Assembly (NCBI RefSeq): GCF_009696605.1
Contig: NZ_VULR01000008.1
Coordinates: 62,001-126,000 of the forward strand
Direction: 5' to 3'
DNA length: 64,000 bases
DNA from: Anaerosalibacter bizertensis
Lineage (GTDB): Bacteria > Bacillota > Clostridia > Tissierellales > Sporanaerobacteraceae
This document shows positions 16,609 through 51,882 of this stretch, in pieces; position 1 is the first letter of the stretch; each line of letters begins with the position of its first letter. The notes beneath the pieces were generated by a model. It was not told the DNA's origin, ran no database searches, and was given only the letters and a program-made list of their open reading frames with translations. The position numbers were made by a program, and so were the translations under genes.

Positions 16609-16718
16609 TAGATAATAAATTCAATTAAAAACTTAATGCATATGTGCAATATTTACTACTAAGACGCCCCTTAGTATCCCCTTCCTACCTACTATTTTAA
16701 AATAGTAGGTATTTTTCT
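16609..16718 (+). ncRNA. Candidate C-rich small regulatory RNA
   Basis: A ~110-base transcript is predicted from the TATAAT at 16597 to a strong terminator (16686-16711, 13-bp perfect stem, then TTTTT). It contains a hairpin TACTAAG/CTTAGTA (16657-16676) whose loop and flank are C-rich (CGCCCC, ATCCCCTTCCTACC), resembling the unpaired C-rich segments with which Firmicute small RNAs such as RoxS/RsaE and FsrA pair with ribosome sites. No reading frame. Promoter and function are inferred; the terminator is clear. An alternative is a short untranslated remnant. Confidence 0.45.
16686..16718 (+). terminator. Terminator between the feo and cop operons
   Basis: Perfect palindrome TACCTACTATTTT with its complement, then ATTTTTCTG. 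It points on the plus strand and has no protein gene in front of it. Confidence 0.85.
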
Positions 16719-16839: not shown

Positions 16840-19212
16840 ATGGGTACAAAAAGTATAACTTTAAATATATCTGGTATGTCCTGTGCTGCATGTGCACAGA
16901 GAATAGAGAAGGTACTTTCAAAACATGAAGGCATAGAATCTTCAGTAGTCAATTTATTGGCAGAAAAGGCTACAATAGAGTATTATGAAGATAAAATTTC
17001 CTTAGAAGATATAGTAAAAACTATTGAAAAAACAGGTTATGAAGTCAGGTTGAATAAAGTAAATCTTTTAATTGAAGGAATGACCTGTTCAGCTTGTTCT
17101 GCAAGGGTTGAAAAGGCTTTAAATAAAATAGATGGAGTAGTAGAAGCTAATGTAAACTTAACTTTAAACAGGGGAACTATAAGCTATATATCTGACGAAT
17201 TAGATCCTAAAGAATTTGTAAAGGCTGTAGAAAAGGCTGGATACAAAGCAGAAATAGAAAAGGAAAGGGATGCAGATAGGGAAAAAGAAGCAAGAGAAAA
17301 AGAGATAAAGTCTTTAAAAACTTCTTTTATTATATCAGCTATATTAAGCATACCACTATTTTCAGCAATGTTCTTCCATATGGCTGGAGTACACACTATA
17401 CTTAATAATGGATATTTTCAATTAGCATTGGCAACTCCAGTACAATTTATAATTGGGTATAGATTCTACAAAGGTGCTTTTAACTCATTAAGAGGTGGAG
17501 GAGCCAATATGGATGTGCTAGTGTCTATGGGAACTAGTGCGGCATATTTCTTTAGTTTATATAATTTATTGTCAGGAGTAGAAGAATACTATTTTGAAGC
17601 TTCGGCAGTTATCATTACTTTAATCCTTCTAGGAAAGACCTTTGAAGCAGTAGCTAAGGGAAAGACTTCAGAAGCTATTAAAAAGCTAATGGGTCTTCAA
17701 CCTAAGACTGCAAGGATTATAAAAGATGGTGAAGAAATAGATATTCCAATAGATGATGTAGAAGTAGGAAATATTATTGTAGTTAGACCAGGAGAAAGGA
17801 TTCCAGTAGATGGAGTGATAGTAGAGGGGAGTTCATCTATTGATGAATCTATGATTACAGGGGAAAGTATTCCAGTAGATAAGAAGGCTGGGGATGAAGT
17901 AGTTGGAGCAACTATAAATAAATTTGGTACATTTAAATTTGAAGCAAAAAAGGTAGGAAAAGATACAGCATTGGCTCAAATCATTAAATTAGTAGAAGAT
18001 GCTCAAGGTTCAAAGGCCCCAGTTCAAAGATTAGCAGACAAAATATCAGGAGTATTTGTTCCTACCGTATTAGTTATTGCATTACTAACCTTTTTAATAT
18101 GGTATTTTGTAAAAGGAGATTTTACCCATGCCCTAATTAGCTCAGTAGCCGTACTTGTTATAGCTTGTCCTTGTGCATTAGGATTAGCAACTCCAACGGC
18201 TATTATGGTTGGAACAGGAAAAGGTGCAGAAATGGGTATTTTAATCAAGGGCGGAGAGCATTTAGAGAAAACCCATGAACTAGACACTATAGTATTTGAC
18301 AAAACAGGAACTATAACTAAAGGAGAACCTGAAGTTACAGATATAATAACTTTTGGAGAAGATAAGGACAATATTCTGAGATTAGGAGCAATAGCTGAAA
18401 AAACATCGGAACATCCATTAGGCCAAGCAATAGTTATGAAGGCAAAAGAAAAAGATATGGAGTTAATAGATCCTGAAATGTTCTTAGCTATACCAGGAAA
18501 AGGGATCCATTCAGTAATAGATGGAAAGCATATCTATATAGGAAATAAAAAATTAATGAAGGATGCAAGTATAGAAGTGGAAATAGCAGAAGAAGAGCTT
18601 ATACGATTAGAAGATGAAGGAAAAACTGCTATGCTTCTTTCCATAGATGGGGAGATAAAAGGTATAATAGCTGTAGCAGATAGTGTAAAAGAAAGCTCTA
18701 AAGAAGCTATAGACCAGTTAAAGAATATGGATATAGATATATATATGATAACTGGGGATAATGAGAGGACTGCAAAAGCTATTGCCAACGAAGTTGGAAT
18801 TAAAAATGTATTGGCAGAGGTACTTCCAGAACATAAGGCAGAAGTAGTAGAAGATATTAGGGCTAAAGGAAAGAAAGTAGGTATGGTAGGGGATGGAATA
18901 AATGATGCACCAGCATTAGTTGCAGCAGATATAGGATTTGCCATAGGTACTGGTACAGATGTAGCTATGGAAGCAGCAGATATAACCCTTATGGGAGGAG
19001 ATTTGAAGGATATAGCTAAGGCTATAAGATTGAGCAAGAGGACTATGAAAACTATTAAACAAAATCTATTCTGGGCCTTTGCATACAATACAGCTGGAAT
19101 CCCTATTGCAGCCATGGGCTTTTTAAATCCTATGATAGCAGGTGCAGCAATGGCCTTTAGTTCAGTATCAGTTGTAACAAACTCTTTAAGGCTTAAAAAT
19201 TTTAAAGGATAA
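16840..19212 (+). CDS. copA: Copper-exporting P1B-type ATPase CopA
   Basis: 790 residues. Two N-terminal heavy-metal domains with CxxC at C15/C18 and C83/C86, then eight membrane helices. The ion-binding CPC motif is at C443-P-C445 and the phosphorylated Asp at D487 in DKTGT; TGES and GDGINDAP are also present. It pumps Cu+ out of the cytoplasm using ATP. GGAAGGAG precedes ATG 16840. First gene of the CsoR-controlled operon with copZ and csoR. All catalytic residues are intact. Confidence 0.97.
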
Positions 19213-45602: not shown

Positions 45603-45645
45603 AAAGAGGTGAGTAAAGGTAAAGTCTTTACTCACCTCTTTTAAT
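45603..45645 (+). terminator. Terminator of wrbA
   Basis: 16-bp stem AAAGAGGTGAGTAAAG with its complement, loop about 7 bases, then TTAATCTTTC. Confidence 0.85.
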
Positions 45646-48803: not shown

Positions 48804-48879
48804 ATAATTTATAGTAATAGATATTAGTATCTGATATAATGTATAGAAATAATGTGTTGCACTGGTGGTGAACTATCAT

Positions 48880-49053
48880 ATGAAATACATTATTTCTATT
48901 ATTATCCTAATGTGCATATTCACTTTTTTAACCTATGCATTTAGGGATTTAGAAAAGGATTATAAACTTTCAAGAAGTAAGAAGAAAGGCAAAGTATCTT
49001 CTATTAATTCTTCAAAGTTTCAAGTAAATCCCAGCCATTACAAAACGAAATAA
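48880..49053 (+). CDS. Small single-pass membrane protein
   Basis: 57 residues from ATG 48880, nine bases after TGGTGGTG (GTG 48865 and 48868 lie in that site). One membrane helix (YIISIIILMCIFTFLTYAF) then a basic/polar tail (KLSRSKKKGKVSSINSSKF). No family recognised. A terminator follows. Between rplY and the AmmeMemoRadiSam genes. Confidence 0.6.
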   Translation: MKYIISIIILMCIFTFLTYAFRDLEKDYKLSRSKKKGKVSSINSSKFQVNPSHYKTK

Positions 49054-49057
49054 TGTC

Positions 49058-49117
49058 AAAAGAGGTTGTCTTTAAATGATTTTAAGAGAAATCATGGGAC
49101 AGCCTCTTTTATTTTTG
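49058..49117 (+). terminator. Terminator after the small membrane protein gene
   Basis: AAAAGAGGTTGTC pairs with GACAGCCTCTTTT (one G-U), then TATTTTT. Confidence 0.8.
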
Positions 49118-49118
49118 G

Positions 49119-49166
49119 CAATAAATATCAAACAAGTTTGATATTTATTGATTATTTGCTTACAAT
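49119..49166 (+). promoter_or_regulatory. AmmeMemoRadiSam promoter with a 15-bp inverted-repeat operator
   Basis: TTGATA (49138-49143), 17 bases, TACAAT (49161-49166). A perfect 15-bp inverted repeat (CAATAAATATCAAAC, 49119-49133, with its complement 49136-49150, 2-base loop) covers the -35. No T run follows, so it is not a terminator. A dedicated repressor or activator site is likely. Confidence 0.8.
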
Positions 49167-49208
49167 AGAAGATAAAGGAAAACGTTAAAACAATTGGAGG
49201 TGAAAAAA

Positions 49209-50618
49209 ATGGGAAAATTATTAGGTACCTATCTATTTCCTCATCCCCCAATAATAGTTGAAGAAATAGGAAGAGGTGGAGAAAAAGGAGCAGAAAATAC
49301 TATTGTAGGAGTAAAAAAACTAGCAAAAGATATAAAATCAAAAAAGCCAACTACTATAATTATAATTACTCCTCATGGTCCAGTTTTTAGCGACGCTTTA
49401 TCTATATCTTGCGAAGAAATACTTATGGGAAGCTTTAAAAATTTTGGCAGGAAAGATTTAAAATTTAAGTTTAGGAATAATAGAGATATAGTAAATAAGA
49501 TTGTTAGAAACGCTGGCAAAGAAGGAATAGCTATTGCACCTATAGATAAGGAGTTCGCTTTAGATTATAATATTGAAACAGAAATAGACCATGGTACATT
49601 GGTTCCATTATACTTTGTAAATAAGGAATATGAAGACTATAAATTAGTTCACATTACTTATGGACTTATATCACCTTTAGAACTATATAGATTTGGAACT
49701 ATCCTACAAGAAATTGTTTTAGATTCAAAAGAAGAAGTAGTATTTATTGCAAGTGGAGACTTGTCTCATAGACTTTCTAATAAAGGACCCTATAGTTATT
49801 CACCAGATGGAGAAGTATTTGATAAAAAAATAGTTAAATATTTGAGAAATAATGATTTTGAATCTATAGCTTCCTTTGATATTAACTTAGGAGAAAGTGC
49901 AGGAGAATGTGGACTAAGATCTTTAATGATCATGGCAGGGTTTTTAGATGGATTTGATGTAGAAACTCAAGTTTACTCCTATGAAGGACCTTTTGGAGTT
50001 GGATATTGTACAGCAAAAGTAGATATAAAGGGAAGAGATGACAATAAAAAATCATATGATAAATTAGAAGAAAAAGAAAGGAATAGACTGAAATCTATAA
50101 GAGAAAATGAAGATGAGTATGTGTCTCTTGCTAGAAAAAGTTTAGAATACTATATAAAAAACAAAAAACAGATGAAAATTCCTAACAATCTCGGCAAGGA
50201 TTTAACAGATAAAAGAGCCGGTGTATTTGTTTCCATTAAAAAAGATGGAAAGCTAAGAGGATGTATAGGTACAATAGATCCTGTCCAATCTTCTGTAGCA
50301 GAAGAAATAATTAAAAATGCTATAAGTGCAGGTACAAGGGATCCTAGGTTCCCAGTTGTATATGAAGAAGAATTAAAGGATTTAGTGTATTCTGTAGATA
50401 TATTAAAAGAAGCAGAAGAAGTAGACTCTATAGACCAATTAGATGTAGAAAAGTATGGTGTTATAGTTTCAAAGGGCTTTAGAAGAGGATTACTTTTACC
50501 TAATTTAGAAGGGATAACTAGTCCTGAAGAACAGGTTAAAATAGCTCTTCAAAAAGCAGGTATAAATGAAAAGGAAGATTATACTATAGAAAGATTTGAA
50601 GTGGAAAGACATTCATAA
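49209..50618 (+). CDS. AmmeMemoRadiSam protein: Memo/LigB domain fused to AMMECR1
   Basis: 469 residues from ATG 49209 (GGAGGTG upstream). Residues ~5-270 are a class III extradiol dioxygenase-like (LigB/Memo) domain (YLFPHPPIIV, IIITPHGPVFSD, FIASGDLSHRL, with metal-ligand histidines); residues ~300-469 are AMMECR1 (VFVSIKKDGKLRGCIGTIDPVQ, TRDPRFPVVYEEEL). Fused genes of this type pair with a radical-SAM enzyme in the AmmeMemoRadiSam system. Its reaction is not established. Next gene is 15 bases on. Confidence 0.9.
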   Translation: MGKLLGTYLFPHPPIIVEEIGRGGEKGAENTIVGVKKLAKDIKSKKPTTIIIITPHGPVFSDALSISCEEILMGSFKNFGRKDLKFKFRNNRDIVNKIVRNAGKEGIAIAPIDKEFALDYNIETEIDHGTLVPLYFVNKEYEDYKLVHITYGLISPLELYRFGTILQEIVLDSKEEVVFIASGDLSHRLSNKGPYSYSPDGEVFDKKIVKYLRNNDFESIASFDINLGESAGECGLRSLMIMAGFLDGFDVETQVYSYEGPFGVGYCTAKVDIKGRDDNKKSYDKLEEKERNRLKSIRENEDEYVSLARKSLEYYIKNKKQMKIPNNLGKDLTDKRAGVFVSIKKDGKLRGCIGTIDPVQSSVAEEIIKNAISAGTRDPRFPVVYEEELKDLVYSVDILKEAEEVDSIDQLDVEKYGVIVSKGFRRGLLLPNLEGITSPEEQVKIALQKAGINEKEDYTIERFEVERHS

Positions 50619-50633
50619 TAGGAGGAGTTTTCC

Positions 50634-51620
50634 ATGGAAAAACTTAAAGAAGCACTGTACTATGAAAAAATTAGAGATAAAAAAGTAAAATGTCATTTAT
50701 GTCCTCATGGCTGTATTATAGTGGATGGAAATCTAGGATTTTGTAAAGCAAGGCAGAACAAAAACGGGGTATTATATACACTAAACTATGGGAAAGTTTC
50801 TTCCTATGCCTATGATGCTATAGAAAAAAAACCATTATATCATTTCTATCCAGGGAGCAAAATATTTTCCATAGGAACCTTTGGGTGTAATTTAGAATGT
50901 AGTTTTTGCCAAAACTGGGAAATTGCCCATTCCAATCCAGCCACAGTAGAAATATCTGATGGAGATATTTTAAAACTAGCAAAGTCCAATTCTTCTATAG
51001 GTGTAGCTTATACCTATAATGAACCTTCCATATGGTATGAATATATTTTAAATATGTCAAAAAAAGTAAAAGATGAAGGGCTTAAAAATGTCTATATTAC
51101 TAATGGGTATATAGAAAAAGAACCTTTAAAAAGACTATTACCTTATATAGATGCTATGAATATAGACTTAAAATCTATAGATGATGAATTTTATAAGGGA
51201 CTATGTAAAGGTAGTCTAGAACCAGTACTAGAAACTATAAAATTGGCTGAAGAAAAAACCTTAATTGAAGTAACAACCCTTCTTATAGGAGGCAGGAATG
51301 ACTCTGTAGAAAAGATTAGAGAAATTTCAAAGTGGCTATCCAGTATAGATAAAAACATTCCTCTACATCTGACTAGATATTATCCAGCTTTTAGAATGAA
51401 TGTTCCTTCAACTAGTTACGCTTCTCTTTTAAATGCCAAAAATGAAGCAATTAAATACTTAAACTATGTCTATATAGGCAATGTGTGGGGAGCAGATGCC
51501 AATACCTATTGTCCAGAATGTAGCACAAAATTAGTAGAGAGAAATTATGGTGTAGAAATCATAGGTATTGAAGATAACAAATGTACAAATTGTGGCTATA
51601 ATATAAGATTGAAATATTAG
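50634..51620 (+). CDS. AmmeMemoRadiSam system radical-SAM enzyme
   Basis: 328 residues. [4Fe-4S]-binding cysteines C85, C89, C92 (GCNLECSFC) of the pyruvate-formate-lyase-activase-like clade. An N-terminal cysteine cluster C20, C23, C27, C37 and a C-terminal CPEC...CTNC pair suggest extra metal sites. GAGGAG precedes the ATG, 15 bases after the Memo/AMMECR1 gene. The substrate is unknown. No glycyl-radical enzyme is encoded nearby. Confidence 0.92.
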   Translation: MEKLKEALYYEKIRDKKVKCHLCPHGCIIVDGNLGFCKARQNKNGVLYTLNYGKVSSYAYDAIEKKPLYHFYPGSKIFSIGTFGCNLECSFCQNWEIAHSNPATVEISDGDILKLAKSNSSIGVAYTYNEPSIWYEYILNMSKKVKDEGLKNVYITNGYIEKEPLKRLLPYIDAMNIDLKSIDDEFYKGLCKGSLEPVLETIKLAEEKTLIEVTTLLIGGRNDSVEKIREISKWLSSIDKNIPLHLTRYYPAFRMNVPSTSYASLLNAKNEAIKYLNYVYIGNVWGADANTYCPECSTKLVERNYGVEIIGIEDNKCTNCGYNIRLKY

Positions 51621-51714: not shown

Positions 51715-51882
51715 TTGTACTGTGCAGTTTGTAAACAAAATAAAGATGAAGGGATAAAATTTTTAGAAGTACATTTATGTGAAAAATGTTTAGATAATAT
51801 TACAAAGACGAGAGTTGAAGATGAAGAGTATAAAAAATATATGGATATCTTTAAAGATATATTAAAAGAGTGTCAGGTTTAA
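51715..51882 (+). CDS. csfB: Sigma-G inhibitor Gin (CsfB)
   Basis: 55 residues from TTG 51715, eight bases after AAGGAG. Zinc-finger cysteines C3, C6, C22, C25 (CxxC...CxxC) and the Gin-type C-terminal part ITKTRVEDEEYKKYMDIF. Gin binds sigma-G (and sigma-E) early in the forespore. A CATAATA upstream at 51684 resembles the -10 of sporulation promoters. Order gin-yaaO-tmk matches B. subtilis csfB. The stop lies inside a hairpin terminator. Confidence 0.88.
   Translation: MYCAVCKQNKDEGIKFLEVHLCEKCLDNITKTRVEDEEYKKYMDIFKDILKECQV

Follow-up and report, generated by a model that had tools for sequence, protein, structure and literature searches.

The perfect palindrome over the promoter of an AmmeMemoRadiSam unit in Anaerosalibacter bizertensis: probably the outcome of a template switch, not a maintained operator

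The window analysed here is a stretch of 64,000 nucleotides of Anaerosalibacter bizertensis, in which an AmmeMemoRadiSam gene pair lies downstream of a promoter and a perfect inverted repeat. Human MEMO1 and AMMECR1 have relatives among the parts of the AmmeMemoRadiSam set. The locus was compared with two congeners, namely a sister species (G001) and a third species (G002), and is composed of the following features, numbered from the first base of the window:

48865-49053, plus strand: small membrane-protein-like ORF of 62 amino acids, lying after rplY and before the palindrome; divergence in G001 is 5.8%
49058-49110, plus strand: candidate terminator of the transcript of rplY and the small ORF, AAAAGAGGTTGTC / GACAGCCTCTTTT and then a T-rich run, arms 92% complementary
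49119-49133, plus strand: left arm of the palindrome, CAATAAATATCAAAC, 6 of 15 bases different in G001
49134-49135, plus strand: palindrome spacer AA; TT, its reverse complement, in G001 and TT at the ungapped position of G002
49136-49150, plus strand: right arm of the palindrome, GTTTGATATTTATTG, containing the -35 element, 2 of 15 bases different in G001
49138-49166, plus strand: sigma-70-type promoter TTGATA-17-TACAAT, with a homologue in front of a membrane-protein gene in G002
49167-49208, plus strand: leader; a deleted membrane-protein gene has left its 3' tail in that of G001, mostly lost here
49209-50618, plus strand: LigB/Memo-like domain fused to AMMECR1 (ORF list and profile searches)
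50634-51620, plus strand: AmmeMemoRadiSam radical-SAM (rSAM) enzyme (TIGR04337), with an N-terminal CxxCPHxC..C motif, a CxxxCxxC core and a C-terminal CxxC..CxxC motif

The two ORFs are separated by 15 bp on the same strand. The first may start at TTG 49194 or at ATG 49209, the ATG being the likelier start on sequence grounds because it is preceded by GGAGGTG (49196-49202), which the TTG would overlap. The encoded fusion scores 164.6 bits against Pfam LigB and 156.6 bits against AMMECR1, yet only 19.7 against Memo, below the gathering score of 27. Among the NCBIfam models, TIGR04335 (protein A) matches it with 134.7 bits, over the curated cut-off of 99, and TIGR04336 (protein B, Memo-like) with 24.5, slightly under its cut-off of 26; the second protein reaches 305.8 bits against TIGR04337, whose curated cut-off is 220. 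The same trend is seen in 26 scanned fusions, all matched by TIGR04336 at E<=0.01 (best 8e-11) and by LigB, with weak Memo matches in 22. By these profiles the fusion is AmmeMemoRadiSam A carrying a predicted LigB-type B part, so that all three parts stand side by side. The locus agrees with the known system in the adjacency of its genes, in the curated scores of A and rSAM and in the fusion of A to a B-like domain, as in nearly all phylum loci examined, and differs from it in the B part, which falls short of TIGR04336. The two-gene unit proposed by the first-pass annotation is thus borne out by ORFs, domain scores and wide conservation, and so is its view of a recognised family with no established reaction: a literature search found none assigned to AmmeMemoRadiSam.

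The unit is widespread. The fusion, or its two halves, occurs in 53 of 80 relatives and an rSAM protein over the cut-off in 43; order-wide, as read from coordinates, the partner is adjacent in 42 of these 43, the single exception being a fragmented assembly. The gene order is reversed in three genomes of one family, the halves of the fusion are separate genes in two other genomes, and fusions without an rSAM partner also occur (four examples). Across the phylum, in 29 loci with a readable rSAM ORF, a LigB/AMMECR1 partner adjoins rSAM in 27, either as a fusion directly upstream (26/29) or as two separate genes (1/29), and no partner lies inside the short flank examined in the other two. The fusion protein, used as query against the named genomes, retrieved two loci only. 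Hence, the gene pair is an ordinary copy of a widespread bacterial enzyme set. Some peculiarities of the loci in relatives are worth mentioning: (i) in four of them the fusion keeps all active-site residues while lacking the rSAM partner; (ii) a gene which by eye resembles M29-type aminopeptidases follows rSAM in 5 of the 29 phylum-wide loci; and (iii) in three loci of one genus rSAM is directly followed by a membrane gene with an APGVSGG motif, DUF368-like by eye.

The extra cysteine clusters that had been singled out at both ends of the rSAM protein are indeed present, and they are not peculiar to it. The N-terminal CxxCPHxC..C is found in 26 of 26 relatives, and a looser CxxCPxxC..C in all 29 rSAM proteins of the phylum set; since the N-terminal motif occurs in every relative examined, the clusters are, from their sequence distribution, family features. 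The C-terminal CxxC..CxxC, present in 19 of 26 relatives (73%) and, by a simple pattern, in about 18 of the 29, is by the same token apparently dispensable in some lineages. The nearest solved relative by sequence is the pyruvate formate-lyase activating enzyme (3c8f, 8fo0), which differs from the present protein by these clusters; in addition, no glycyl-radical enzyme gene adjoins rSAM here.

As for the fusion (residues in ATG numbering; add 5 for the TTG start), an alignment of 30 such proteins shows H12, H56, D127-H128, D184, H187, C234 and E259 to be invariant in 30/30, E233 being Glu in 28 and Gln in 2; the LRGCIG motif (349-354) of the AMMECR1 part is invariant among the aligned fusions. 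The LigB score and the profile matches to PDB chains 8iq8, 8ihg and 3vsg relate the fusion to the class III extradiol dioxygenases (LigB, HpaD, aminophenol dioxygenase). Their His-His-Glu facial triad and acid-base His are present in the fusion alignment at the sequence level, the Glu being aligned with the GE of HpaD: where HpaD (8iq8) reads G-E-G-G, the fusion carries a Glu (E233) and, one residue further on, a Cys (C234). The invariant Cys beside the Glu, the AMMECR1 part and the rSAM partner set the fusion apart from these dioxygenases, as does its occurrence in presumably anaerobic clostridia, in which O2-dependent ring cleavage is unlikely. In MEMO1, the iron ligands are H49, H81 and C244, and C244 occupies the place of the LigB Glu (PMC11081632). 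MEMO1 belongs to the same fold superfamily and its ligands have likely counterparts in H12, H56 and C234, whereas the fusion falls under the Pfam Memo cut-off and keeps the adjacent Glu. AlphaFold models of both proteins, built on three-sequence alignments, were too poor (pLDDT 46 and 52) and were not used for fold search, so that the metal site is read from sequence.

On this reading, the fusion would supply an Fe-type site made of H12, H56, E233 and/or C234, together with H128 and H187, as well as the AMMECR1 LRGCIG site; the rSAM enzyme would act on the same substrate, and the pair would perform a constitutive housekeeping modification chemistry. For the host clostridia are presumed anaerobes, an oxygen-independent reaction comes into consideration: that the iron site of this phylum's units, LigB-like but bearing one more invariant Cys and joined to AMMECR1 and rSAM, may run a reaction new to the LigB superfamily is a tentative and rather doubtful suggestion.

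The neighbouring genes, namely rplY, the small membrane ORF, a Gin-like gene, a decarboxylase, tmk and holB, make up a conserved housekeeping neighbourhood. Among the ORFs of 45.5-55.5 kb no regulator gene was recognised except the Gin-like one. The latter is a short ORF just after rSAM (51715-51880, 55 amino acids, TTG start) matching Gin, an inhibitor of sigma-G (PF10764, 43.5 bits). The repeat at 49058-49110 was not called by a simple terminator scan (loop limit of 8 nt), and its role as terminator is inferred.

The palindrome at 49119-49150 has fully complementary arms (2x15 bp, 100%) around a 2-nt spacer. Its right arm does embed the -35 element of the promoter, as previously annotated: TTGATA (49138-49143) is followed, at a spacing of 17 nt, by the -10 element TACAAT (49161-49166). 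Chance is a poor explanation for such a structure, as no perfect repeats with arms of at least 15 and gaps of up to 8 turned up in 30 simulations of a 64-kb sequence with matching composition. The window is, however, rich in perfect repeats, with 16 having arms of at least 13 against 0.07 expected, many of them terminator-like; therefore, non-randomness alone does not make an operator.

The distribution of the palindrome speaks against the dedicated operator, and the signal control, that the first-pass annotation had drawn from it. Allowing up to 3 mismatches, the 2.46-Mb genome contains no copy beyond the one at 49119-49150; its 20-bp core, under the same tolerance, is no commoner in that genome than a reversed control (4 versus 9), and the core does not occur in any of 248 further genomes from the order. 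Likewise, none of the palindromes upstream of the fusions in 29 relatives resembles it. Nor is the repeat conserved in the sister species, despite 92% identity of the fusion protein; the first-pass annotation had itself named such non-conservation as refuting its operator. In the ungapped alignment 10 of 32 bases differ, mostly in the non-promoter arm and in the spacer, where both bases are changed, whereas no mismatch (0/22) is seen in the 22 bp that follow, as far as and including the -10. Divergence from G001 is about 6% in the flanks and 5-10% in the surrounding genes, and within the 11 kb compared no other 32-bp stretch is as diverged as the palindrome, leaving out the alignment edge and a block of poorly alignable intergenic DNA (45.9-46.4 kb). 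The G001 sequence keeps 9 of 15 Watson-Crick pairs (11 with G-U), as against 11-13 of 13 pairs in the other perfect repeats of the window that can be aligned ungapped. Most likely, then, the palindrome is not a maintained operator.

The promoter itself has a traceable history. In the third species, TTTGATAATTATTGACTATTTGTTTAAAATAGTAGGTGAAAGGGG is identical to the promoter region at 34 of 45 bases (28 at the next best place) and precedes a membrane-protein gene whose end meets the fusion start. A gene of this kind, with no convincing Pfam match, occupies 959-1504 of locus L008 (reverse-complemented), and five loci of other relatives have a similar one at the matching place upstream of the fusion; it was deleted in the lineage of A. 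bizertensis. From these sequences, the promoter appears to be older than the palindrome and to drive, in G002, the membrane-protein gene that immediately precedes the fusion. A remnant of that gene survives in the sister species, in which the promoter is followed by AAAGGGG and then by KRGKRYSLIFDPS, a stop and AMLK, corresponding to the membrane-gene tail (KRGRKRYFFSFNPSASML in G002). The remnant peptide KRGKRYSLIFDPS is aligned against KRGRKRYFFSFNPS, and the underlying DNA alignment scores 63, the maximum in 1000 shuffles being 35. By sequence comparison, the common ancestor of A. bizertensis and G001 lost most of the gene, probably by a deletion between two AAAGGGG repeats, this heptamer being common to the promoter end and to the membrane-gene tail of G002. 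The leader of A. bizertensis has lost about 37 nt more than that of G001. On this sequence evidence, the promoter owes its place next to the fusion to the loss of the membrane gene, and did not arrive there as a dedicated control region. The notion that the promoter was carved from membrane-gene codons was rejected, the same promoter being found before that gene in G002.

How did perfect symmetry arise over an inherited promoter? The spacer offers the clue. Positions 49119-49135 are exactly the reverse complement of TT plus the right arm. A single template switch, of the kind known as quasi-palindrome correction, would have perfected an imperfect repeat: the left side would have been rewritten as the reverse complement of right arm plus spacer, which makes the left arm a perfect partner and inverts the spacer. 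Given an ancestor with the TT spacer of G001 and the right arm of A. bizertensis, the switch predicts CAATAAATATCAAAC AA, which is the sequence found. An imperfect core such as the one that G001 retains, TATTAAAC TT GTTTGATA, would seed the event. In contrast, eight independent symmetry-restoring substitutions at flank rates have a probability of 6e-10 to 7e-8. Arm homogenisation with spacer inversion is the signature published for template switches (PMC8604942); the present case shares both, except that it is deduced from two species and was not seen as an event. Along the same line, the inverted repeat at 45606-45638 has arms identical in G001 and a spacer that looks inverted (GTAAAGT versus GCTTTGC), and may be regarded as another possible template switch, suggestive only.

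Three alternatives deserve consideration. The first is a species-specific operator, at which a dimeric repressor sitting on the -35 would shut the unit until a signal arrives. A perfect palindrome is well placed there for a repressor, its 2x15 symmetry is far from random, and both right arm and promoter are conserved. The promoter, though, is enough to explain the conservation of the right arm, and selection acting on operator symmetry could account for the arms and not for an inverted spacer; with one site in the genome, none in the order, loss in the sister species and no adjacent regulator, the proposal is improbable. A better operator candidate in the window is the perfect 26-bp palindrome TACCTACTATTTTAAAATAGTAGGTA at 16686-16711, with divergent feoA-like genes on one side and a CopA-type ATPase gene (16840-19212) on the other. 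It differs at 2 of 26 bases in the sister species, and the two weaker sites found elsewhere, one of them inside a coding ORF, lend it no regulon support.

According to the second alternative, an ancestral operator would have decayed in G001 only. Indeed, at the centre of the repeat 7 of 8 positions can still pair in G001 (TATTAAAC/GTTTGATA), and two left-arm positions of A. bizertensis agree with G002. Such decay, however, needs about 8 changes in 17 bp where the flanks have about 6%, and would have to invert the spacer exactly, into the TT that the outgroup also has. G002, moreover, has a homologous promoter without a palindrome there; its left arm is barely alignable (9-10 of 18 bases match ungapped). 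The sequences of the two congeners thus favour, if weakly, the imperfect state with a TT spacer as ancestral and the perfect palindrome as derived, and make decay in G001 a very improbable course. A transcript hairpin, acting as terminator or attenuator of rplY read-through, is hardly credible, for although the palindrome comes just after a terminator-like repeat in a window where many perfect repeats look alike in this respect, its stem is A+T-rich (3 G-C pairs of 15), no T-run follows on either strand, the predicted transcription start is downstream of the palindrome and G001 has not kept the repeat.

To sum up, the locus is most likely a standard AmmeMemoRadiSam unit served by an inherited sigma-70-type promoter, over which one template switch would have drawn a palindrome that is not maintained as an operator. 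The present copy gives no special handle on the reaction of the AmmeMemoRadiSam system. More generally, one replication error can be enough to create a perfect palindrome over a promoter, and a single sister genome, in which the spacer is inverted, one arm rewritten and the promoter intact, suffices to suspect a copying error before proposing a regulator.
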